64,000 nucleotides of DNA, taken from positions 1 to 64,000 of the forward strand of contig NZ_JABJWC010000004.1 of the NCBI RefSeq assembly GCF_013155395.1. The letters run 5' to 3'. The notes below the pieces were generated by a model, which ran no database searches, had not been told where the DNA came from, and worked only from the letters and a program-made list of their open reading frames with translations. Every line of letters begins with the position of its first letter. Position 1 is the first letter of the stretch. Shown in pieces: positions 3,702-27,354 of the stretch. This DNA is from Komagataeibacter melomenusus (GTDB taxonomy: Bacteria > Pseudomonadota > Alphaproteobacteria > Acetobacterales > Acetobacteraceae). Position numbers and translations under genes: made by a program.

Positions 3702-4802
3702 GTGCCCGCTGCGAAAAAACCGGGCGGTTCCCCCGGCCTGATCCTGCTCTGCCTGCTGCTGCTGCTTTCCGCCTGCCACAAAAAGGCGGCGGTGGAGGAA
3801 GTCCGCCCCGTCCGTTCCGTTATTGTCGAACCCGAATCCGATGCGAATGGCGAGGTGATGACAGGGCAGGTCGCCGCCCATCAGTCCATCAACCTCGCCT
3901 TCCGCCTGCCCGGCAAGGTGGTGGAACGCACGGTTTCCGCTGGCAGCGTGGTGCATGCGGGAGATGTGCTGGCGCGGCTGGATGACACGGTGCCCCAGCA
4001 GGCCCTGCGCACGGCGCTGGCGGAAAACGCCACGGCAAGGGCAGCGTTGGAGCAGGCCACCCCCCTGAAGCAGCGGGCTGCGGCCCTGCTGCCGGTGGAG
4101 GCCATTTCACGCAACGATTATGATGACGCGGTGCGCCGCTACAAAACCGCGCAGGACCAGGTGCAGGCGACACAGGCGCAGGTGCGCGTGGCGCAGGAAC
4201 AGCTTGGTTATACCCGCCTTGTGGCACCGGAAGATGGCATCGTGACCAACCGGCTGGTGGAAGCGGGCGAGGTGGTGGCCGCAGGCCAGCCCGTGCTGCG
4301 CATGGCGGCGGATGACGGGCTGGACGCGCAGTTCGACATGCCTGAAGCCCTGGCGCAGTCCCGTCTGGCCGTGGGCATGACCATGAAGGTGTGCCTGGAC
4401 GCAGCGCCTGCCACCTGTGCGCCCGCTGCGATCTATGAAATCGCCCCCGACACGGATCCGCTGACCCGTACCTATCACACCAAGGCGCTGCTGCGCGCCA
4501 CGCGGAACATGATGCCGCTGGGTGCGGTGGTCACGGGCCGCCTGTCCATGCCATCAGCACCAACCGTTCATCTGCCGCCTGCCGCCCTGAGCGTGCAGGA
4601 TGGCAGGCCGGCGGTCTGGATCGTGGCCCCTGACACGCTGCGTGTCTCCCAGCGCGCCGTCACCGTCGCCCGCTACGGCACGGATGACGTGGTGATCGCC
4701 TCCGGCCTGAATGCTGGTGACCGGGTGGTGACCGCAGGCGTGCAGGCGCTCTATCCGCAAGAAAAGGTCAGCCTGCTGGATGAAGCCGATGTCCGCCCCT
4801 GA
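3702..4802 (+). CDS. RND efflux periplasmic adaptor lipoprotein
   Basis: This is a membrane fusion protein of a tripartite RND efflux pump. From GTG 3702 it is 366 residues, with a lipoprotein signal LLLLLSAC, so the N-terminal Cys of CHKKAAVEE would be lipidated. A biotinyl-lipoyl half-motif (FRLPGKVVERTVSAGSVVHAG), a coiled-coil hairpin, the second lipoyl half (GYTRLVAPEDGIVTNRLVEAG) and beta-barrel domains follow. I prefer GTG 3702 over ATG 3582 because ccggagcgg sits just upstream and it places the signal peptide at the N-terminus. The stop overlaps the pump gene start by 23 bases, indicating translational coupling. Confidence 0.88.
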   Translation: MPAAKKPGGSPGLILLCLLLLLSACHKKAAVEEVRPVRSVIVEPESDANGEVMTGQVAAHQSINLAFRLPGKVVERTVSAGSVVHAGDVLARLDDTVPQQALRTALAENATARAALEQATPLKQRAAALLPVEAISRNDYDDAVRRYKTAQDQVQATQAQVRVAQEQLGYTRLVAPEDGIVTNRLVEAGEVVAAGQPVLRMAADDGLDAQFDMPEALAQSRLAVGMTMKVCLDAAPATCAPAAIYEIAPDTDPLTRTYHTKALLRATRNMMPLGAVVTGRLSMPSAPTVHLPPAALSVQDGRPAVWIVAPDTLRVSQRAVTVARYGTDDVVIASGLNAGDRVVTAGVQALYPQEKVSLLDEADVRP

Positions 4803-16618: not shown

Positions 16619-17857
16619 TTACCCGTCCATCCGGATTGGGTTGCGCACCATGGCGAGTGACAGCCCGGCCGCGACAAGCAGGGCTGCGGCGCACATATAC
16701 CATGCCATGTCAAAGCTGCCGGTCCAGGCCACGATATACCCGGTCAGGATGGGCGAGAGCAGCCCCAGCGAATTGCTGCATGTCAGGGTCACACCCGTTA
16801 CGGCACCCATTTTGCCGCCATCTTCCACCATGTCGGTCAGCAGGGCGGTATTGGCGCCATTGGCCGCCATCAGGCACGCCAGTGCGCCAGACAGCACAAG
16901 CAGGATGGGCATCATGGTATGAAAATGCGGCAGCAGCCCGATCGTGGCAGCCCCCAGCAGGCAGGTTGCGACAACAAAACGCCGGTTGGGCGGATGAATG
17001 CCCCTGCGAAAGACCAGATGTTCGAGAATGCGCCCGATAACGACCGCGCCAATGGCTGCGGCCAGATAACACAGCGCCGTGCTGTTGCCCGTGCCGGTCG
17101 TGTTGATGTGCAGCTCATGGATCAGGTACAGCGGCATCCATGACATGACCAGAAAGTTCAGATAGTTCTGGGTGCACTGCACCGCGAGTATCCCCAGAAA
17201 GGAAGAGGAGCGGAACAGGTTCCTGATCTCGCGGGCCGTAATGGGCTTGCGCGGGGTGGCGTCGGGTTTTTCCTTCGGGTTACGGTACACCAGCCACCAC
17301 ACCAGCGCCCAGGCGATGCCGATGCCGCCAAGCGCCATGAACTCGCACCGCCACCCGAAGAACGTGATCAGGTAGGCCCCCGCAATCGTGCCGCCCGCCA
17401 GCCCGAGCTGCATGCCCGTAAGCAGCATGGTCATGACCGATCCGCGCTCACGTGGCTGCGCCCAGTTGCGCACAACCGTGGCCCCCACGCCAAAGGTCGG
17501 CGCCTCGCCCACGCCAAGCAGCACGCGGGTCATCAGGAACTGGGTAATGTTCTGCGCCATGCCGCCAAGCAGCATGGCAAAGGACCACACGCCCACGGCC
17601 AGGCTGCCGATGGTGCGCGCGCCCACCATGTCGAGCACGATGGTCGAGGGCAGGTTGAGCAGGAAATATGACCACAGGAAACTCGACGAGACCCAGCCCA
17701 TCTGCACCGGTGTCAGCGAAAACTCCTTGCCCATCGTGGGCAGGGCGATGGAGAGCGCCGCACGGTCGCCATAACTGATGGCGTACATCAGGAAGACAAG
17801 AAAGAAGAACACGTAGCGGGCAGGAATTGCGCGCCTGCTTCGTGCGTCGGTGGTCAT
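16619..17857 (-). CDS. MFS transporter, anion:cation symporter (ACS) type
   Basis: This 412-residue transporter has 12 predicted helices. The first helices read FLMYAISYGDRAALSIALP, and the loop after helix 2 has the DMVGARTIGS form, both typical of the ACS branch (hexuronate, tartrate and similar organic anions). I chose ATG 17857 because aggtga lies just upstream. An in-frame ATG at 17896 would add 13 residues but has no ribosome site. It sits 81 bases after the DMT transporter gene and behind the pxp genes, so it may import a substrate of that pathway. Confidence 0.82.
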   Translation of the reverse strand: MTTDARSRRAIPARYVFFFLVFLMYAISYGDRAALSIALPTMGKEFSLTPVQMGWVSSSFLWSYFLLNLPSTIVLDMVGARTIGSLAVGVWSFAMLLGGMAQNITQFLMTRVLLGVGEAPTFGVGATVVRNWAQPRERGSVMTMLLTGMQLGLAGGTIAGAYLITFFGWRCEFMALGGIGIAWALVWWLVYRNPKEKPDATPRKPITAREIRNLFRSSSFLGILAVQCTQNYLNFLVMSWMPLYLIHELHINTTGTGNSTALCYLAAAIGAVVIGRILEHLVFRRGIHPPNRRFVVATCLLGAATIGLLPHFHTMMPILLVLSGALACLMAANGANTALLTDMVEDGGKMGAVTGVTLTCSNSLGLLSPILTGYIVAWTGSFDMAWYMCAAALLVAAGLSLAMVRNPIRMDG

Positions 17858-17938
17858 TTCACCTGTTGTCACGCTGTAGGACTCCTGGTGTGCCATGAAT
17901 TACAAGGGGGAGGGGATGACAGATGCGGGGCGGCGCGA

Positions 17939-18871
17939 TCAGGGCGGGGTGCCGGTGGCCGCATCCATCGTGCCTTCGGCCACTACTTTCTGCCTGGCCG
18001 GGCGGTCGTGGCGCAGCATCCACACGCCGGAGCCAATGATCAGCAGGCCGCCAATGCCCATGGCAATGCCGGGTATCTCGCCAAACCCGAACCACCCGAT
18101 CAGCGCCGCCCATAGCAGGCCGGAATAGGCAAATGGCCCGATGGCGGAGACCTGCGCCGAGGCGAAGGCCTCGGTCTGGAGCACCTGCGCGATACCGGCG
18201 AATGCACCCACGGCCACAAGGCAGCCCGCCTCGGTCAGGCCGGGCGTGGTCCAGATGAAGGGCAGCGGCAGCGCGGTCATGACCGTCATGAGGATGGCCT
18301 GCCACAGGGCGATGGTGGTGCTGGATTCCGTAGCCGAAAGCTGGCGGATCTGCATGGTGGTCAGCGCGCCCACGGCCCCCTGCGCCAGGGCTACGAAATA
18401 GGCCCAGTTCGGCACGGCAGCCCCCGTCGCGCCATGGCCATGCAGCAGCCCCTTGCCAAGAGCCACCACGATCACGCCCGAAAACCCGAGCGAGACCGCA
18501 ATCCAGCGCTGGACCGAAGGGCGCTCATGCAGCAGCGGAATGGACAGCAGGACCAGGAACAGCGGCTGCGTATAGGACAGGACCTGCTGTTCGGCCAGCG
18601 GCAGGCGGGTCACGGTGATCACGACCATGATCATGCTGATCAGCCCCACGACCGAGCGCAGGACATGCCCGCCAAAATGCTGTGTTTTGAGCACGATGCC
18701 GGAGCGTGAGGCAATCAGCAGCACGAAGGGCAGCGAAAACAGGTTGCGGAAGAAAATGATCTCGAGTGCGGGAAGCGTGGAGCCGGTCAGTTTCTGCAGG
18801 GCATTGAGGGCAGCGGTAAAGAACGTTGCCGATGCTAGAAGAAGGGCGCCACGTTTCAGGTCATGCTTCAT
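17939..18871 (-). CDS. EamA/DMT family transporter
   Basis: This is a drug/metabolite superfamily permease of about 310 residues with ten helices in two EamA halves (first half from LLLASATFFTAALNALQKL, second from AYFVALAQGAVGALTTMQIR). Start ATG 18871 is preferred because gaggt lies about 10 bases upstream; an in-frame ATG at 18919 adds 16 polar residues before the first helix. It lies downstream of pxpB-pxpC-pxpA on the same strand, after a gap of about 170 bases. Export or import of an amino acid or organic acid is plausible but not shown. Confidence 0.82.
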   Translation of the reverse strand: MKHDLKRGALLLASATFFTAALNALQKLTGSTLPALEIIFFRNLFSLPFVLLIASRSGIVLKTQHFGGHVLRSVVGLISMIMVVITVTRLPLAEQQVLSYTQPLFLVLLSIPLLHERPSVQRWIAVSLGFSGVIVVALGKGLLHGHGATGAAVPNWAYFVALAQGAVGALTTMQIRQLSATESSTTIALWQAILMTVMTALPLPFIWTTPGLTEAGCLVAVGAFAGIAQVLQTEAFASAQVSAIGPFAYSGLLWAALIGWFGFGEIPGIAMGIGGLLIIGSGVWMLRHDRPARQKVVAEGTMDAATGTPP

Positions 18872-19039
18872 TTGATCCGTACCTCGATGCACGACATGGA
18901 CAGCGGCGCGCTTCATCAATCAATGCTGCCGGATACCCCCGCAGGCTTCATGTTGCGACAGCGTAACGCAGGGGATGGATTCCGGGTCATAGGTGTTCGT
19001 TGCGATGCAATAGAAAATTCTTATGGGTGGCGTGCGCCC

Positions 19040-19807
19040 TCAGTCCCCAAGCTGGCAGGCGGGGGTGAGCACGCCGCCACTGGCCTCGATTTCCGCGCGG
19101 ATGGCGCGGGCGAGTTCGAGTGACCCGGGCGTATCGCTATGCACCAGGATCGACTGTGCCCTGACCGGCAGGCGCGCGCCGTCAATGGTCGTGACCGAGC
19201 CGTCCTGCAGGAACTGCTTCACGCGTGCGCGCACGCCCGCCAGGTCATGGATGACAGCACCCGGCTGCCCGCGCGGCACCAGCGTGCCGGCGGTGGTATA
19301 GGCACGATCGGCCAGGAACAGGGTCTGTGCCCGCAGGCCCGCCTTCTCGGCGGCGCGCTCGGTCGCCTGGCCGGGCATGCAGAACACGCTCAGGTTCCGG
19401 TCAAGTGCTGCAATGGCACGGGTCAGGCGCAGGGCAAGGGCCTCATCCGCATTGGCCATGTTACCGAAGGCGGCATGGTAGCTGACATGCGTGACCCGGT
19501 GGCCATGGCGGGCGGCAATGCCCTGCAGCGCGCCGATCTGGTAGCACATCATGGATTCCATATCCGCGTCGGACACGGCCATGGTGCGGCGGCCAAAGCC
19601 CATCAGGTCGGGCAGGCCGGGATGGGCGCCAATGCCCACGCCCTTTTCCTTTGCCAGCCGCACGGTGCGGTCCATGATGGCGTAGTCACCGGCATGGAAG
19701 CCGCAGGCGATGTTGGCTGACGAGACGGTCTCCATCAGCCCGTCATCATCAGCGATGCGCCAGCGGCCAAAACCTTCGCCCATGTCGGAATTGAGGTCGA
19801 TCTTCAT
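19040..19807 (-). CDS. pxpA: LamB/YcsF family protein, 5-oxoprolinase subunit A-like
   Basis: This 255-residue protein matches the family length. DLNSDMGEGFGRWR at the N-terminus, ANIACGFHAGD, GAHPGLPDLMGFGRR and ADRAYTTAGTLVPRGQ are family blocks. In known bacterial PxpABC, the complex converts 5-oxoproline to glutamate with ATP. Oddly, the usual VK-x-HGAL motif reads VSYHAAF, losing the Lys and Gly, and the later HGD reads HSD. The start overlaps the pxpC stop by four bases (ATGA). It may act on a different substrate or be partly impaired. Confidence 0.85.
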   Translation of the reverse strand: MKIDLNSDMGEGFGRWRIADDDGLMETVSSANIACGFHAGDYAIMDRTVRLAKEKGVGIGAHPGLPDLMGFGRRTMAVSDADMESMMCYQIGALQGIAARHGHRVTHVSYHAAFGNMANADEALALRLTRAIAALDRNLSVFCMPGQATERAAEKAGLRAQTLFLADRAYTTAGTLVPRGQPGAVIHDLAGVRARVKQFLQDGSVTTIDGARLPVRAQSILVHSDTPGSLELARAIRAEIEASGGVLTPACQLGD

Positions 19808-20814
19808 GCCTTGGCTCCAGATTTCATGCCAGCACGGCAGCGGGCGGATGAGCGGTAATGGGCAACCATCATGCGCAGGTCGTCGAGATAGGCGTTGACC
19901 GGCTGCATGGCGGCAACACCTTCGCTAAAGCTGCATTCATGCAGGCGGATGCGCCAGCCGATGCGCGCCTGCGCCAGCCGCCACAGGTCGGCCTCGATCA
20001 CGGTGGCGATGCGCGGATAGCCACCCACGGTATTGGCGTCGGCCAGTTGCACGATCGGCTCGCCCGCGGGCGGAACCTGCACGATGCCGGCGATCACGCC
20101 GTAAGAGCGCAGTTCAACCCGGTGGCGCAATTCAAGCGGGGCGCCCTGCAGGCGGTAGCCCACGCGGTTGCTCTGTGGTGTAATGCGCCATGGGGTATCC
20201 CACAGCCGCTTCTGGGCTTCGGGCGTGAACAGGGCATAATCGGTTGCGGGCATCGCGCGCAGGTTGATGACCCTGGCATCCGCCTCGTCTGCTACGGCAT
20301 CCAGCGCGGCAGCGGGGGGCAGGGCGCCATAGCCCGCCACATCCAGCGTGACGCCTGTGGTCCTGAGCGTATCGCCTGCCTCCAGCGGGCGGCCGTCAAG
20401 CCCGCCAAAGCTGCCACGTAGCTGCGTGCTGCGCGAGCCCAGCACCACCGGCACCTCGATGCCGCCTGCAAGACAGACATAGCCGCGCGCGCCCGCTTTG
20501 GGCGGGCCGATACGCAGCACCTGACCGGCTGCTGCCGTCGCGACCATCCAGGGCAGGAGGGTGTGGCCATCGAGTTCGATTGCGGCATCAATGCCCGTCA
20601 CCGCAAAGGTGGCGGGTGCGTCAAAGCGCAGCACGAAGGGATAGGTCTGCAGTTCGATGCAGGCATCATCCATCTGGTTGCCCAGCAGGATATTGCCGAC
20701 CTGAAGGGCGAGCGTGTCCATCGCGCCAGACGTGCCCACGCCCAGGTTGCGGTAGCCGGGGCGGCCGAGATCCTGCACCGTGTTCAGGGCGGATGTTTCA
20801 AGGATCGTAATCAC
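19804..20814 (-). CDS. pxpC: Biotin-dependent carboxyltransferase-like protein, 5-oxoprolinase subunit C
   Basis: From GTG 20812-20814 this is 336 residues, near the usual PxpC/KipA length. It begins ITILETSALNTVQDLGRPGY and continues GVGTSGAMDTLALQVGN, both hallmark AHS2-domain blocks; RITPQSNRVGYRLQG and SYGVIAGIVQVPP follow. The AHS2 domain is also the carboxyltransferase part of urea carboxylase. The GTG overlaps the pxpB stop (GTGA), which supports this start over an upstream extension running antiparallel through pxpB. It overlaps pxpA by four bases. Confidence 0.87.
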   Translation of the reverse strand: MITILETSALNTVQDLGRPGYRNLGVGTSGAMDTLALQVGNILLGNQMDDACIELQTYPFVLRFDAPATFAVTGIDAAIELDGHTLLPWMVATAAAGQVLRIGPPKAGARGYVCLAGGIEVPVVLGSRSTQLRGSFGGLDGRPLEAGDTLRTTGVTLDVAGYGALPPAAALDAVADEADARVINLRAMPATDYALFTPEAQKRLWDTPWRITPQSNRVGYRLQGAPLELRHRVELRSYGVIAGIVQVPPAGEPIVQLADANTVGGYPRIATVIEADLWRLAQARIGWRIRLHECSFSEGVAAMQPVNAYLDDLRMMVAHYRSSARCRAGMKSGAKA

Positions 20815-21503
20815 AGCTCGATGCTTTCGGGGTAGAAGCGGATGCGATCGCCAACGGCAAACAGGGCAGGGGGCTGTTTGGTTGGATCGAACACGCGCAG
20901 GTCGGTAAACCCGATGGAATTCCACCCGTTTGGCCCCGTCAGCGCGGAAATGCCGGCCTGCATGCCGCCGATGATGACGGTCCCGGCCTGCATGTTCAGC
21001 GATGGCACGGTCTTGCGCGGCGTTGCAATGCGTGGGTCAAGCCCGTGCAGGTAGCCAAAGCCCGGCGCGCTGCCAATGGCGCAGACCGTGTATTCACTGC
21101 CGTGATGGATGGAGATGACCTCCTGCGCCGACAGGCCGGAATGGGCGCACACGGCGGCCAGATCCTCGCCCAGCGCGCCGCCATAGCGCACGCCGATCTC
21201 GAACAGATGCCCCTCGATATGCCGCTCGGGCAGGGTGTTCCAGGCGTGGCACAGCCACTCCGCCACCGCCTGCGGGCTTTTGGGCGGGGCGGAAAAGATC
21301 AGCATGAGGTTGGTCACGCCGGGAATGAGTTCAAGCACGTCGGGCCGGGCCTGTGCCGCGTCCATCAGTGCCCAGATGCGGCGCTGGTGGGCCATGGTGA
21401 AATCACCCGGCGCCTCGAACAGCATGGCGCGCGTGCCGATCATGCTTATGGCAGGCGCGGCAGCCGTATTGCGCGCCACATCGTTCTTTATATCCGTGTT
21501 CAA
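20811..21503 (-). CDS. pxpB: 5-oxoprolinase subunit B (KipI/AHS1 family)
   Basis: This 230-residue protein carries the AHS1 domain: MLFEAPGDFTMAHQRRIWAL near residue 27, VRYGGALGEDLAAVCAHSGL, and the glycine-rich APGFGYLHGLDPRIATPRK. It is the partner of PxpC in the 5-oxoprolinase complex and corresponds to the other half of the urea carboxylase carboxyltransferase. It is the first gene of the minus-strand pxpB-pxpC-pxpA operon, divergent from an operon with BCCP and biotin carboxylase genes. Confidence 0.88.
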   Translation of the reverse strand: MNTDIKNDVARNTAAAPAISMIGTRAMLFEAPGDFTMAHQRRIWALMDAAQARPDVLELIPGVTNLMLIFSAPPKSPQAVAEWLCHAWNTLPERHIEGHLFEIGVRYGGALGEDLAAVCAHSGLSAQEVISIHHGSEYTVCAIGSAPGFGYLHGLDPRIATPRKTVPSLNMQAGTVIIGGMQAGISALTGPNGWNSIGFTDLRVFDPTKQPPALFAVGDRIRFYPESIEL

Positions 21504-21821
21504 AATACACAGTCCCTGGAACGGCGCTGGTTATTGAGCCTGAACCGTAACAATATAGGTTTCGCGGCATGAGGTGCCAGGTGCAAGACTATGGCCGTTT
21601 CCGTAACGATGGCCAGTGCAATTGTGGTTGTGAGGCTATTGAATAATCTTATGGCTCAGCAGGATAGCAGGGCCATCATATTATGTTATGGCGTGAGAAC
21701 GAAGTGCTCTTGGCGCTTGTTGTCCATGGTGGTTAGCATAAAAATCAATAGCTGAGCATCCGGTATCCGCTGTGGGGCCGGGTGGTGTTAGTTTCTCTGT
21801 TCAGGATCGGGTTTTCTTACC
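21504..21821. other. Divergent control region between pxpB and the SDR-BCCP-biotin carboxylase operon
   Basis: This 318-base gap separates two divergent operons and should hold both promoters. No clear -35/-10 pair or strong operator is visible. The SDR start at 21822 is preceded by aggat at a suitable distance. Confidence 0.5.
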
Positions 21822-22577
21822 ATGAGCAACCAGCCGTATCGTACCGCCCTCGTCACTGGCGCCTCTTCCGGTATTGGCGCGCAGATCGTGCGCCGCCTGG
21901 CGCAGGAAGGGATCGAGGTTCATGCCCTGGCGCGTGACGCGGCCCGGCTGGAGCAGCTGTCGCAGGAGACCGGCTGCGTCGTGCATGCCGTGAGCGTGTC
22001 CGATCAGGCCGGGATCGAGGCGCTGGTCAAGGGGCTCGAGATCGACATCCTGGTCAACAACGCCGGGCAGTCGCGCACGGGCAACATAACCAACACCACG
22101 CCCGAGGATATCGATGCGCTGGTGGACGTGAACCTGCGCGCGGTGCTGCAACTGACCCGCCTCGTGGTGGCAGGCATGATCGAGCGTGATCGTGGCCATA
22201 TCGTCAACATCACCTCCATTGCAGGTCATTATGCCTTTGCAGGCGGCAATACGGTCTATCATGCCACCAAGGCGGGCGTGCATTCGCTCTCGCAGCAGTT
22301 GCGCTGCGACCTGTTCGGCCACCGCATCCGCGTGACCGAAGTCTCGCCCGCGCGGTGCGAAACCGAGGTGTTCGGCCGCCTGATCGGCAACATGGAAGAA
22401 GCCAGGAAGCGTTTCTTTGATGAATATGAGTCGCTGCTGCCCGAGGATATTGCAAACTCCGTCGCCTTTGCCGTCATGTCGCCGCAGCGCATGAATGTCA
22501 GCTTCATGGAAGTGCTGCCCACCATGCAGGTCGTGGGCGGGCTGAACTTCGCCAAGAAGACATCCGGCGCGGCGTAA
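21822..22577 (+). CDS. Short-chain dehydrogenase/reductase (YdfG-like)
   Basis: This is a 251-residue classical SDR. The cofactor loop is [10 protein letters not shown] (about residues 11-20), followed by NNAGQ, catalytic Ser in NITSIAG and the YHATK active site. The basic residue after the second strand (ALARDAARL) suggests NADP(H). Relatives oxidise 3-hydroxy acids or serine-like compounds. It is the first gene of an operon with BCCP and biotin carboxylase, five bases before the BCCP start, so it probably acts in the same pathway. Confidence 0.87.
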
Positions 22578-22582
22578 GGGCA

Positions 22583-23020
22583 GTGGATCTCACGCATGTC
22601 AGGCGGCTGATCGACCTGCTGGCCACGGCTCCGGTTACGGAGCTGGAGGTCGAGGAAGGCGGCTGCCATATCCGCATCACCCGTGGCGGCGGCGCGCAGC
22701 CTGTGGGTGCGCCATCCGCCCCGCCCGTGGCGGCAGCTCCGGCACCCGTTGCGGCCGCGCAGCCAGCCGTGGCACCCGTGGCGGAGGCGGCGGTCATCAC
22801 CGCTCCCTCCTATGGCGTGTTCCATCTCTCGCCCGCACCGGGGGCGCCGCCATTCGTCACGGTGGGGCAGGACGTGCAGGCCGGGCAGGAAGTCGGGCTG
22901 GTCGAGGCGATGAAGGTGTTCAACGCCGTTCGTGCCGAGCAGGCTGGCAGGATTGCCGCCGTGCTGGTGGAAGACGGCACCGAAGTAGAGGCAGGCACCC
23001 CCCTGTTCCAGCTGGCATGA
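22583..23020 (+). CDS. Biotin carboxyl carrier protein (AccB-like)
   Basis: This is a 145-residue BCCP starting at GTG 22583. A short N-terminal helix region is followed by an Ala/Pro-rich linker (about 48-75) and a C-terminal biotinyl domain with the intact attachment motif VEAMKVFN (Lys near residue 111). It overlaps the biotin carboxylase gene by four bases (ATGA). Its location opposite the pxp operon suggests it serves a dedicated carboxylase and not general fatty-acid synthesis; the housekeeping accBC pair would then lie elsewhere. Confidence 0.88.
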
Positions 23021-24384
23021 GTGAGACCCCACGTTTCAGCCGCGTGCTGATCGCCAATCGCGGCGAGATTGCCCTGCGCATCCAGCGCGCCTGCCGCCAG
23101 CTCGGGTTGGAGACGGTGGCCGTGTATTCCGAAGCCGATGCCGACAGCCGCCATGTGCATGAGGCCGATGTGGCCCTGTGCATTGGCCCGGCGGCTGCGG
23201 CCCGCAGCTATCTCGACCCTGACGGGCTGCTGCTCGCCGCCCGGCTGACCGGGGCGCAGGCCATTCATCCCGGCTACGGCTTCCTGTCGGAAAATGCTGA
23301 TTTTGCCGATGCGGTGGAAAAAGCGGGCCTGACCTTCATCGGTCCCACGGGGGCCTCCATCCGCATGATGGGCGACAAAATTACCGCCAAGCGCGCCATG
23401 CGCGAGGCGGGTGTGCCCTGCGTGCCCGGATCGGACGGGCCGCTGCCTGCCGATATGGACGCCGTGAAGGCCATTGCGCTGGAGGTTGGCTTTCCGGTCA
23501 TCGTCAAGGCATCGGGCGGCGGCGGCGGGCGCGGCATGCGCGTGGTCGAGCGCGTGGAGGACCTGGCGCAGGCCGTGACCCTGACCGCCAAGGAAGCCGA
23601 GCAGGCCTTCGGCAACCCGACGCTGTATCTCGAACGCTTCATGCAGAAGCCGCGCCATATCGAAATTCAGGTTCTGTGCGATACGCATGGCACAGCACTA
23701 TGGCTGGGTGCGCGCGACTGCTCGCTGCAGCGCCGCCACCAGAAAGTGCTTGAGGAAGCCTCCGCCCCCGGCATCGCCCCCGAAACCATTGCCGAAATTG
23801 GCGCACGCTGCGCCGAGGCATGCAGGCGGATCGGCTACCGTGGCGCGGGCACGTTCGAATTCCTGTATGAAGATGGCGTGTTCGCCTTTATCGAGATGAA
23901 CACCCGCGTGCAGGTCGAGCACCCGATTACGGAAGAGACCACGGGCATCGACATCGTGGCCGAGCAGTTGCGCATTGCCCAGGGCGCGCGGCTTGGCATC
24001 GCGCAGGCGGATATTCCGCTGCGGGGCCATGCCATTGAATGCCGCCTCAATGCCGAGGACCCGTTCACCTTCATGCCCTCGCCCGGCACCATCACGCGCT
24101 GGGACCTGCCCGGCGGCCCGGGCATCCGGGTCGATACGCATGTCGTAGCCGGCTACACGGTGCAGCCGTATTATGACTCGCTGATCGGCAAGATCATCAG
24201 TTATGGCGCCACCCGTGAGCAGGCCATTGCGCGCATGCGCGTGGCGCTGGCGGAAATGAAGGTGGAAGGGGTGTCAACCAACATCGCCCTGCATCAGGAC
24301 CTGCTGGCCGACCCCGCCTTTGCGCGTGGCGGCGTGGATATCCACTATCTTGAACGCTGGCTTGCACAAAGGACAGCCTCATGA
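23017..24384 (+). CDS. Biotin carboxylase (AccC-like)
   Basis: This 455-residue enzyme would carboxylate BCCP biotin using ATP and bicarbonate. Visible blocks are [28 protein letters not shown], the ATP-grasp glycine loop [30 protein letters not shown], and the catalytic [14 protein letters not shown]. The length equals a free-standing AccC subunit. It overlaps the genes on both sides by four bases, so translation is coupled with both carrier-like proteins. The likely partner carboxyltransferase is PxpB/PxpC across the divergent promoter. Confidence 0.92.
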
Positions 24385-24842
24385 CCAACCGCTCCGAACA
24401 GGTGGTGCCCCATTTTGATCGGCTGCCAGAGCCTGAACAGATTGGCCAGATGGCAACATGGCTGGCGCAGGCAGGGCTGGAAAGTCTGGAACTGTGCAAC
24501 GAGGCGGCGGGGCTGAAACTGCGCATCCGCGTGGGGCAGGGCGCACCGGCGGCAATGCCCGCCCACGCCCCGCCAGCAGCGCAGCCCGATGCCGGAGCGG
24601 GACTGGTGGCAGTGAAAACGCCGTATTTTGGTCATCTGTGCCTGGTCCATCCGCAGCGCGACAGCGCTTTTGCTCCGGTAGGCACGAAGGTGGCGCAGGG
24701 CGATATTGTAGCGCTCCTGACACTGGACAGCCTGCAGGTGCCCGTTCCCGCGCCGATCGCGGGCAGGGTTGCCGAGGTGACGGGGCAGGCCGGCGCGCTG
24801 GTCGGATATGGCACCGTGATCATGCAGATCCAGCCTGACTGA
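24381..24842 (+). CDS. Degenerate biotinyl/lipoyl-domain protein lacking the biotin lysine
   Basis: This 153-residue paralogue of AccB has an N-terminal helical region, an Ala/Pro linker and a C-terminal biotinyl-like domain. Aligned to the BCCP at 22583-23020, the biotin motif EAMK is replaced by TLDS (within [17 protein letters not shown]), so it should not be biotinylated. The surrounding beta-sandwich residues ([19 protein letters not shown]) remain, suggesting a structural or regulatory role. It overlaps the biotin carboxylase stop by four bases and has aagga upstream. Confidence 0.8.
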
Positions 24843-24985: not shown

Positions 24986-26412
24986 ATGAGTAATATGCCC
25001 GCTCCGGCGCGCGAGAGCGCGACCTGTTGGGCGAGGTCACGCTGCCCCCCGGCGTGCTGTGGGGCGTGCACACAAAGCGCGCGCTGGACAACTTTCCCAT
25101 AAGTGGCACCACGATCGGCAGTTTTCCTGAACTGGTGCAGGGGCTGGTCACGGTCAAGCAGGCGGCGGCGCGGGCCAATCTTGCGCTGGGTTATCTCGGC
25201 CCCACGCGCGCCAACGCCATTGATGGTGCCTGCCAGCGCATCCTGCAAGACCCCGCCTATAACGCGCAGTTTGTGGTCGATGCCATGCAGGGCGGGGCAG
25301 GTACCTCGACCAACATGAATGCCAACGAGGTCGTTGCCAATGTTGCCCTTGGGCTGCTGGGCGAAAAGCCGGGCACCTACGGCGTGCTGCACCCCAATGA
25401 TCATGTCAACATGGCACAGTCCACCAACGATGTGTACCCCACAGCGCTCCGCCTTGGCCTGCTGCTGGCGGTTGACCCGCTAGTCGCAGCCCTTGAGGGA
25501 CTGCATGCGGCGCTGGATGAAAAGGCAGGGGCGTTTGATGCGATCCTGAAGGTTGGCCGCACGCAGTTGCGTGATGCCGTGCCCATGACGCTGGGGCAGG
25601 AATTCGGGGCATTCCGCACGGCGGTGGCAGGTGAAATCAGGAGCATAAAGGTCCATGCGGCAGCCTTTGAGCAGGTCAATCTTGGCGGCACCGCCATTGG
25701 CACGGGGCTCAATACCGACCCGCGTTATGCCCCCACAGTCATGGCGGAACTGCGCGGCCTGACCGGGCGGCCCATGAGCAGTGCGCCCGACCTGATCGAG
25801 GCCGCATCGGATGTAGGGGCATTCGTGCTGTTTTCGGGCGCGCTCAAGCGCCTGGCGCTCAAACTGTCAAAAATGTCCAGCGACCTGCGCCTGCTCTCAA
25901 GCGGGCCGCGCACGGGCCTGGGTGAAATCGTGCTGCCGGCGGTGCAGGCGGGGTCTTCCATCATGCCGGGGAAGGTCAATCCCGTCATACCCGAGGCGGT
26001 CAATCAGGTGGCCTATCTGGTCGCGGGCCATGACCTGACCATTACCATGTGTGCCGATGGCGGGCAGTTGCAGCTTAATCCGTTTGAACCGATGATTGGC
26101 TATTGCCTGTTTACATCCATTGCGACATTGCGCACCGCCATCGAAACCCTGACCACGCGCTGCATCAGCGGCATTCGTGCCGACCAGGCACGGTGCTAGG
26201 CCCTGTTTGACCTGAATATCGGCATCATTACGGCACTGGTGCCGGTGCTGGGTTACGATGTCTGCTCGGCCATTGCCAAGCGCGCATTGGCACAGGATCG
26301 CAAGGTGACGGACCTGATCGTGGAGGACAGGCTGCTTTCGACCGAACAGCTTGCCGCCCTGTTGCAGCCCGATGCGCTGACCCGCCCCAATATCGGGCGC
26401 ATCCCGGCCTGA
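24986..26412 (+). pseudogene. aspA: Aspartate ammonia-lyase, frameshifted and nonsense-mutated
   Basis: The homology covers a full aspartase/fumarase-C enzyme: DLLGEVTLPPGVLWGVHTKR, GAGTSTNMNANEVVAN and the signature GSSIMPGKVNPVIPE. Two lesions break it. The expected ATG 24986 (MSNMPAPARE) is in a different frame from the DLLGE block at 25021, needing one extra base between them. A TAG at 26197-26199 then interrupts the frame, after which 70 in-frame residues (ALFDLNIGIITALVPVLGY onward) complete the C-terminus to TGA 26412. A shortened product from TTG 25027 is conceivable but would lack the C-terminal domain. Confidence 0.85.
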
Positions 26413-26415
26413 GCC

Positions 26416-27354
26416 TTAGCCGAATGGCTGCGTGCCCGGCCAGTTATGCGAGGCGGCCATGGCCTTGGCGAGGTCGATAAGGATTTCACGTACGGCGACC
26501 GAGGCCTCGGTTTCGGGAATGATTTCGGGAATGCATAGTGACACATCTTCCTGAATGACCGGGTTGTGCAGCGGAAAGATGCGTGATTTGCCCGGTACGA
26601 CGATGCGGCTGGCAACCGACCAGGGCAGGATGGTGCTGCCTATGCCCTGCTCTATGGCGCCCTGCAGGGTGATCAGCGCCTCGATCTCGGCTACGATGCA
26701 GGGTTCAAGCTGCTTGCGCATGAAGGCCATGTCCACGCTCTTGCGCACAAAATTATGTTTGGGCGGCAGCAGCAGGGGAATGTTGGCTATGTCGGCAAGC
26801 TGCACGGCCCCTTTTTCATTGTGGGGGAATTCCAGGTCATGCGGTGCCAGCAGGAAGAATTCTTCCTTCATCAATGGCGTGAAAATGACGCCCTTGATGG
26901 GGCCTGCGCCATGAATCACGGCCATGTCCAGACGGCCGGTCATGATCAGTTCGCTGTAGATGTCATCAAAGCTTTCGGTCAGGTGCAGGGTAATGTTGGG
27001 CAGGCGCTCGCGCACGAGCTGCAACAGCTTGACCGAGAGTGTGGACCCCGCGCTGTAAGGGGACAGGCCGACCGAGACCTTGCCCACCAGCGGCCCCGCG
27101 CCCTGGCTGATTTCAACCATGGCCCGGTCGAACTGCTTGGTCAGGGTCTGTGCATGTCGGTACAGTTCCGCTCCGGCCGTGGTGGGGGTTACGCCGCTCT
27201 TGCTACGGATGACAAGCTTCTGTTTGAAAGCATTCTCGAGTGTGGCCAGTTGCTGGCTCAATGCGGGCTGGGCAATATTGAGCAGGTCAGCCGCACGCGA
27301 AATGCTGCCAAGATCGATAATTTTAATAAAAGCCTGTAGTCGGCGTATGTCCAA
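26416..27354 (-). CDS. LysR family regulator, Nac-like
   Basis: This 312-residue regulator has an N-terminal winged helix with MDIRRLQAFIKIIDLGSIS and ADLLNIAQPALSQQLATLE, closely resembling the nitrogen-assimilation regulator Nac. The effector domain (VSVGLSPYSAGSTL onward) is full length. It ends three bases from the aspartase pseudogene and is divergent from the TonB receptor at 27736, which is the natural target candidate. The inducer is unknown. Confidence 0.87.
   Translation of the reverse strand: MDIRRLQAFIKIIDLGSISRAADLLNIAQPALSQQLATLENAFKQKLVIRSKSGVTPTTAGAELYRHAQTLTKQFDRAMVEISQGAGPLVGKVSVGLSPYSAGSTLSVKLLQLVRERLPNITLHLTESFDDIYSELIMTGRLDMAVIHGAGPIKGVIFTPLMKEEFFLLAPHDLEFPHNEKGAVQLADIANIPLLLPPKHNFVRKSVDMAFMRKQLEPCIVAEIEALITLQGAIEQGIGSTILPWSVASRIVVPGKSRIFPLHNPVIQEDVSLCIPEIIPETEASVAVREILIDLAKAMAASHNWPGTQPFG

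Follow-up and report, generated by a model that had tools for sequence, protein, structure and literature searches.

Facing pxp and biotin carboxylase genes in Komagataeibacter melomenusus: a putative split ATP- and biotin-dependent ring-amide hydrolase with a lysine-less carrier homologue

Do two facing gene rows, one known from 5-oxoprolinases and the other from biotin-dependent carboxylases, encode a single enzyme? The question is raised by a 64,000-nucleotide stretch of Komagataeibacter melomenusus DNA (here called the window; assembly GCF_013155395.1, contig NZ_JABJWC010000004.1, positions 1 to 64,000). A minus-strand row, PxpB-PxpC-PxpA-EamA-MFS, includes the three Pxp subunits and two transporters, and it faces a plus-strand row, SDR-BCCP1-BC-BCCP2, with a short-chain dehydrogenase/reductase (SDR), two biotin carboxyl carrier protein (BCCP) homologues and a biotin carboxylase (BC). 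The reading favoured here, with somewhat more confidence than doubt, is that the products of both rows make up a single split enzyme akin to PxpABC, which would hydrolyse ring amides with the help of ATP and biotin and in which BCCP2, a carrier homologue without the biotinyl lysine, would be an adaptor; we infer the complex, its activity and its substrate from the comparisons that follow.

All the genes named in the preliminary description of this locus are present at their place, with open frames and matches to the expected families (Table 1). They include every part of a urea carboxylase, namely BC, carboxyltransferase (CT) subdomains A/B and C/D, and biotinyl domains, as separate proteins. 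None reached the cut-off of the single-chain urea carboxylase model TIGR02712, the best scores being 489 bits (BC) and 161 (PxpC) against 1303.85, and no allophanate hydrolase was found among 11 genes scanned around the locus, nor AccA or AccD among the scanned neighbouring genes. BC passed the AccC model and has biotin carboxylases as its best PDB matches. BCCP1, earlier described as intact, does carry the EAMK motif, with the biotinyl Lys in 17/17 aligned sequences, and passed the AccB model TIGR00531 narrowly (115.5 > 115.2 bits). PxpB passed the equivalog TIGR00370 (165 > 145.55 bits); PxpC passed the domain model TIGR00724 (294 > 230) and missed the 5-oxoprolinase equivalog NF045499 (278 < 500); and PxpA passed the subfamily models NF003814 (335 > 226) and NF003816 (233.5 > 213) and missed the PxpA equivalogs NF003815, NF003813 and NF003812.

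The structural model of PxpC matched Escherichia coli YbgK (Z 34.4), Kluyveromyces lactis urea amidolyase (Z 30.9) and Mycobacterium smegmatis 0435 (Z 29.9). In PDB entry 9yx5, which also contains AccA3, chain V is homologous to PxpC and chain W to PxpB; the entry is entitled 'Structure of the long chain acyl-CoA carboxylase complex from Mycobacterium smegmatis with MSMEG_0435-MSMEG_0436 bound'; a literature search found no paper on this entry, which is known from its title and chain names. AccA3 is described as common to acyl-CoA carboxylases (PMC11001197).

A search with the window BC returned 80 loci, whose neighbouring genes were called by BLAST against the window proteins. PxpB, PxpC, BC, BCCP1 and BCCP2 occur together in 35 of them, in three gene orders, and the remaining 45 have BC and a BCCP, with no Pxp gene within the available DNA; being seeded with BC, the search cannot show what share of Pxp loci carries this gene. 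Divergent rows arranged as in the window were found in 25/35 (Komagataeibacter, Novacetimonas, Gluconobacter, Gluconacetobacter and Acetobacter), a single row BCCP1-BC-PxpB-PxpC-BCCP2-PxpA-SDR in 8/35 (Caballeronia, Paraburkholderia, Amaricoccus, Variovorax and broadly named bins), and the order BCCP1-PxpB-PxpC-BCCP2-PxpA-BC in 2/35 (Rhodovarius and one bin). PxpA is present in 34/35 full loci, the exception being L029, where the DNA ends before PxpA, and the SDR in 33/35. The MFS and EamA genes stand at the same place in the divergent-order loci where the DNA reaches; in the 10 full loci of other gene orders no MFS gene of at least 38% identity is listed, and a LysR relative (at least 38% identity) adjoins the set in 6/10. 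The co-location, whose absence in relatives would have told against the preliminary description, is conserved across three gene orders and distant groups.

In a survey of 120 genomes of the window's family, BCCP2, counted at E up to 1e-22, was found in 13 and CT_A_B in 36, the latter count including fused urea carboxylases and two fragments. CT_A_B is present in 12/13 genomes with BCCP2 and in 24/107 without it (Fisher p 1.2e-6, a guide only, as the genomes are related), and in 11/13 genomes a single contig carries both, no more than 8 kb apart. G720 has them on separate short contigs and G676 has no CT_A_B. The counts were redone at this threshold because a loose BCCP2 profile (E 1e-5) drew ordinary AccB: it matched 263/289 genomes of the class, and its best examined non-window match, L104, is an ordinary AccB. 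L249, whose contig is as long as that of L060, was not counted for BCCP2; other surveyed genomes may likewise duplicate named loci, and the two sets were therefore not summed.

BCCP2 is the least expected part of the set. The stretch noted in the preliminary description ends at 24842 and does take in this gene, which was left undescribed there as a lysine-less carrier. Lys occupies the biotinyl column of BCCP2 in 0/41 aligned sequences, window included; a single off-column Lys lies three columns before it in L181 and three after it in L152, and the row of L208 is weaker in this count because its Lys sits one column further on. In L208 the second carrier (G351, 4279-4767; VLSKLM) has no EAMK, and by the PxpC tree this locus lies outside the window-like class I defined below; carriers of this kind may be more widely spread or have arisen twice.

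In a profile comparison, the alignment of BCCP2 to BCCP1 spans columns 13-149 of 152 (99.5%, E 7.4e-23), and BCCP2 therefore has an AccB-like N-terminal part too. It scored below the TIGR00531 cut-off (24.2 < 115.2). Its predicted fold has a mean pLDDT of 80, and residues 75-151 of the model match the biotinyl domain from E. coli (Z 15.2, rmsd 1.3, 77 aligned, 22% identity). Over five pairs, of which the widest is near dS saturation, dN/dS was 0.17-0.25 for BCCP2 and 0.16-0.31 for BCCP1. BCCP2 is under purifying selection, and a decaying gene was dropped as an explanation in view of these similar values. Judged from its sequence, BCCP2 should be incapable of carrying biotin, and it is most likely a structural adaptor holding BC and BCCP1 to PxpBC, a role that we infer from the features above.

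From the Pxp side, 398 Pseudomonadota genomes were searched and 162 had a CT_A_B match. The sample consists of 97 CT_A_B frames shorter than 900 aa among the matches listed, which do not extend to the weakest, with the window's own excluded and about 7 kb read either side of each PxpC where the contig allowed (a number of these stretches run into a contig end). PxpB was found beside these free-standing PxpC genes in 97/97 loci, PxpA in 87 and BC in 32, the BC lying 0.9-4.6 kb from PxpC and on the same strand in 31/32; the floor of 300 bits for BC excludes L169, in which it is cut by a contig end. A carrier domain lies within the BC open frame in 12 of the BC-linked loci.

Three classes were distinguished, and L208 falls in none of them and stands alone. 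Class I, which is window-like, comprises L152, L216 and L224 in the sample; L173 and L181, both without BC, are added on the strength of their place in the tree. Class II has 13 loci with the order PxpA-BCCP-BC-PxpB-PxpC (L153, L154, L156, L158-L160, L162, L166, which is cut by a contig end, L167, L176, L178, L180 and L189), plus L218, which branches apart. Class III has 14 loci with PxpA nearby (L186, L187, L191, L198, L200, L212-L215, L219, L220, L222, L228 and L229), in which PxpB and PxpC form one frame in 13/14 (not L200) and BC and carrier one frame in 12/14, no carrier being detected in L186 and L220. L186, L198 and L220, labelled 'BCsep' in the PxpC tree (fused carrier below threshold), were counted as class III by their place in that tree.

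The trees are FastTree only, and a long-branch warning applies to urea carboxylases and class III in the BC tree. Class I PxpC sequences form one group of 19 rows (support 98), class II with L218 is placed next to the urea-carboxylase outgroup, and class III is separate. The BCs of class I likewise group together (99); L208 and four AccC-like rows of beta/gamma type are close to them, and the Acetobacteraceae AccC-like rows are not. The BC-linked loci are spread over separate groups, and therefore BC linkage was not a single event or has often been lost. L173 (G634) and L181 (G489) keep LysR, BCCP2 and SDR genes near class I PxpBCA, and the same genomes also carry canonical PxpABC (L137 with L173, and L148 with L181).

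The remainder of the window genome (assembly of 3.64 Mb in 146 contigs; closest named relatives by BC, Komagataeibacter xylinus K2G30 at 99% and K. nataicola at 98%) contains a second AccC-type BC with an adjacent AccB carrier on contig C114, and AccA- and AccD-type proteins are encoded elsewhere. The window BC is 58% identical to this other AccC. The possibility that the window BC and BCCP1 are the genome's only AccBC, which would have undermined the preliminary description, was accordingly dropped, as the cell has acetyl-CoA carboxylase parts besides this pair. The other AccB (G000 C114:11391-11643) is cut by the contig end, leaving its N-terminus unreadable; it was not retained as a broken gene, since its 85-aa frame ends with the contig (C114, 11643 bases). 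The genome has one CT_A_B protein, the window PxpC, and no Hydantoinase_B protein was found in it.

A joint ATP- and biotin-dependent enzyme is favoured because the five-gene set recurs in 35/80 loci and three orders, because BCCP2 co-occurs with CT_A_B and BC is linked to PxpC in 32/97 loci, and because 9yx5 holds PxpC and PxpB homologues with AccA3. The match of the PxpC model to urea amidolyase (Z 30.9), the separate AccC, AccB, AccA and AccD of the genome, and the near full-length alignment of BCCP2 with BCCP1 under purifying selection argue in the same direction. The scheme starts from established features (parts, conservation, missing lysine, purifying selection and clade structure) and is modelled on urea amidolyase, in which urea is carboxylated first and hydrolysed second. 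BC would carboxylate biotin on BCCP1, using ATP and bicarbonate; PxpB-PxpC, of carboxyltransferase type, would use that carboxyl group to activate a ring amide such as 5-oxoproline or a lactam related to it; and PxpA would open the activated ring, after which the carbamate would lose CO2. BCCP2 would tie BC and BCCP1 to PxpBC via its AccB-like N-terminal part and its biotinyl-like domain, in a role like that of the linking domains of other split carboxylases. As a guess, the SDR could act on the product and the transporters on uptake.

Several observations weigh against a biotin-dependent enzyme of this kind. No BC lies nearby in 65/97 sampled PxpC loci, and E. coli PxpC, with no linked BC, shares a supported 43-row group (99) with class I. 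Within class I, L173 and L181 have no BC or BCCP1 in the stretch read and one AccC-type BC per genome, with AccB beside it; urea-carboxylase-type BCs are also present. These two loci either borrow AccBC or need no biotin, and their retention of BCCP2 and SDR fits an adaptor with borrowed AccBC and also a biotin-free enzyme. In G676, locus L242 keeps PxpA, BCCP2, BC, BCCP1 and SDR but PxpBC is gone; as read from its open reading frames, this locus sits among transposase-like genes. The MSMEG_0435-0436 pair in 9yx5 might act as an inhibitor there or have bound by chance. Canonical PxpABC is described as acting by phosphorylation (PMC13274462), co-purified PxpB and PxpC are reported to hydrolyse ATP and PxpABC is called unlike ATP-dependent carboxylases (PMC8453981), and the portions of published work on canonical PxpBC that were available report ATP hydrolysis with no mention of biotin. 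Finally, at the column of urea carboxylase K1605 Arg is found in the window PxpB (R163) and in 18/18 other class I sequences.

K1605 of the K. lactis enzyme (KlUA), which falls in the motif TKYNP in the alignment to 5i8i, is reported to act, in all likelihood, as general base when the carboxyl group is transferred (PMC5770610). Lys was found at this column in 3/3 urea carboxylases and in 14/14 class II sequences including L218 (motif PKY). Arg also occupies it in 14/14 class III sequences, in L208 and in 62/64 BC-free rows, E. coli included (63 rows from the sample plus E. coli). The Lys-bearing BC-free exceptions, L157 (G604) and L164 (G504), are class II in the tree, with no BC within the stretch read. 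The column tracks descent and not BC linkage, because class III has BC-carrier fusions yet Arg. A window PxpB with the urea-carboxylase Lys was dropped, as the alignments give Arg. Of the urea-carboxylase likeness proposed in the preliminary description, the presence of all parts as separate proteins stands; the catalytic base does not, being Arg with Lys absent. Arg163 argues that the window enzyme should not be named a urea carboxylase and leaves biotin dependence undecided either way, and class II, with Lys in 14/14, appears a better candidate than the window for a split urea-carboxylase-like enzyme.

A second column separates class I from all others. At the position of window PxpB Ser145, Phe was found in 64/64 BC-free, 14/14 class II and 14/14 class III sequences and in L208 (93/93), Asp in the three urea carboxylases, and Ser, Val or Ala (15, 2 and 1) in 18/18 other class I sequences. 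This difference hints at a substrate other than 5-oxoproline. By trees and alignments, the window type is a clade of its own, and its marks are BCCP2 and the replacement residues (Ser, Val or Ala) at the PxpB Phe column.

The locus could instead encode an ordinary 5-oxoprolinase, in which 5-oxoproline is phosphorylated by PxpBC at the expense of ATP and its ring then opened by PxpA, while the neighbouring BC and BCCPs serve elsewhere; this is a real, if clearly lesser, possibility. It agrees with the PxpB equivalog and the two PxpA subfamily models of that name, with the place of PxpC in the 43-row group of E. coli PxpC and the PxpB Arg of that type, and with ATP hydrolysis by canonical co-purified PxpBC (PMC8453981); the window set may even be the cell's only 5-oxoprolinase, because the genome has no second CT_A_B and no Hydantoinase_B. 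However, it leaves BC and two carriers across three gene orders unexplained, the PxpC equivalog (278 vs 500) and three PxpA equivalogs were missed, a Phe invariant in PxpB outside class I (93/93) is Ser, Val or Ala in 18/18 class I sequences, and G634 and G489 each have a canonical set as well as one of class I. An enzyme that carboxylates a small nitrogen compound other than a lactam, again with biotin, and yields a stable carboxylated product on which PxpA or SDR acts later, is unlikely: the carboxyltransferase fold, the class-specific change of the otherwise invariant Phe, the SDR in 33/35 loci and the aspartase-like and NAC-like LysR genes nearby would suit it, but PxpA, the ring-opening subunit in 5-oxoprolinase, is kept in 34/35. 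Little credence is also given to the wider proposal that PxpBC pairs at large depend on biotin and bicarbonate and activate ring amides as carboxyltransferases, with BC-free loci, the 5-oxoprolinase of E. coli included, borrowing AccB/AccC and BCCP2 serving as a dedicated docking adaptor that persists even in L173 and L181, where the linked BC and BCCP1 are absent.

For BCCP2 alone, a role as brake or competitor, limiting the reaction by occupying the place of the carrier on PxpBC or on BC, would agree with a biotinyl fold kept without Lys; it is nevertheless quite improbable, since BCCP2 is present where the linked BC and BCCP1 are gone (L173 and L181) and in 35/35 loci, a pattern that suits a required component more than a brake, though not decisively. 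That BC and BCCP1 are a second acetyl- or acyl-CoA carboxylase supply, serving AccAD and standing near pxp by accident, is very improbable. Both proteins pass the AccC/AccB models and the genome encodes AccA- and AccD-type proteins, but it also has another AccC, to which the window BC is 58% identical, and another AccB; the window BC groups with class I BCs and not with Acetobacteraceae AccC-like rows, and co-occurrence with pxp is far above chance.

Within the locus, 4-bp overlaps were found at each of PxpB/PxpC, PxpC/PxpA, BCCP1/BC and BC/BCCP2. The PxpC start was placed at a GTG at 20814 rather than at 20925 of the open reading frame (ORF) list, an equivalent start being present in 16/17 aligned relatives. 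Promoter-like and terminator-like matches in the 318-bp intergenic region are no commoner than in shuffled sequence. Further along, the LysR-family regulator is NAC-like, scoring just below the NAC model cut-off (303 vs 309), and an aspartase-like ORF (25027-26199) matched NF008909 over positions 12-400 of 474 only; its relative in L019 stops at a similar position.

Table 1. Features of the pxp and biotin carboxylase locus, in window coordinates
Feature	Coordinates	Strand	Basis
MFS transporter	16619..17896	-	MFS_1 E 8.7e-53
EamA-family transporter	17939..18919	-	EamA E 1.4e-21
PxpA / LamB-YcsF hydrolase subunit	19040..19807	-	PF03746 (LamB_YcsF) E 2.3e-91
PxpC, carboxyltransferase subdomains A/B	19804..20814	-	PF02626 (CT_A_B) E 8.4e-84; start by alignment
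PxpB, carboxyltransferase subdomains C/D	20811..21503	-	PF02682 (CT_C_D) E 7.6e-62; TIGR00370
Divergent intergenic region, 318 bp, between the two gene rows	21504..21821		
SDR oxidoreductase	21822..22577	+	adh_short E 1.1e-45
BCCP1, biotin carboxyl carrier with EAMK	22583..23020	+	PF00364 E 4.5e-17; TIGR00531
Biotin carboxylase (BC)	23017..24384	+	TIGR00514 654 bits > 626.5
BCCP2, lysine-less BCCP homologue (pseudo-carrier)	24381..24842	+	PF00364 E 1.8e-8
LysR-family regulator, candidate regulator of the set	26416..27354	-	LysR_substrate E 7.6e-28

With BC beside 32/97 sampled PxpC loci, many genes annotated as '5-oxoprolinase' may belong to biotin-dependent enzymes, and the window locus is a small system of acetic acid bacteria in which this could be tested. 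A conserved and selected BCCP homologue without the residue that defines a carrier would be an unusual part of a biotin enzyme, and would illustrate a way of coupling separate BC and CT proteins that needs no fused chain.

The presence of pxp genes beside acc genes is already published and is not new. A six-gene operon of Staphylococcus aureus is reported to hold pxpB, pxpC, pxpA, accB and accC, in an account that treats its regulation and not the enzyme (PMC11315280), and extra BC/BCCP genes together with pxpB/pxpC are reported in Lactiplantibacillus pentosus (PMC12427679); a joint biotin-dependent function is unstated in the available parts of such accounts. The S. aureus operon, likened from its description only, resembles the window in combining pxp with accB/accC in one operon. 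In Corynebacterium glutamicum, pxpTABC is described as required for growth on 5-oxoproline, with phosphorylation by PxpBC as the assumed mechanism (PMC13274462). The complex in 9yx5 resembles the proposed one in that PxpC- and PxpB-like chains are found with a BC/BCCP subunit; it differs in that AccA3 is shared, whereas the window locus has a dedicated BC.

Compared with AccB/AccC of acetyl-CoA carboxylase, whose models BC and BCCP1 pass, the window set adds a second carrier without Lys. In Aspergillus nidulans, lamA and lamB are divergently transcribed, and LamA may resemble urea carboxylase. They are described as lactam catabolism genes under AmdR (PMC8016842). A lactam substrate would be common to both systems and LamB appears in the Pfam family name of PxpA; the lam genes are fungal and were compared by description only. 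Urea carboxylase and urea amidolyase (K. lactis, 3va7 and 5i8i) share the BC, CT and BCCP parts and the PxpC fold with the window set, but are single chains with one carrier domain and the likely catalytic Lys K1605 in place of the window Arg. The E. coli pxp locus (pxpBCA, b0711-b0713) has no BC, BCCP1 or BCCP2 among its seven annotated surrounding features. E. coli PxpABC has the same three subunits as the window, the same PxpB Arg and a PxpC in the same supported group, and differs at the position-145 column, where it has Phe and the window Ser.

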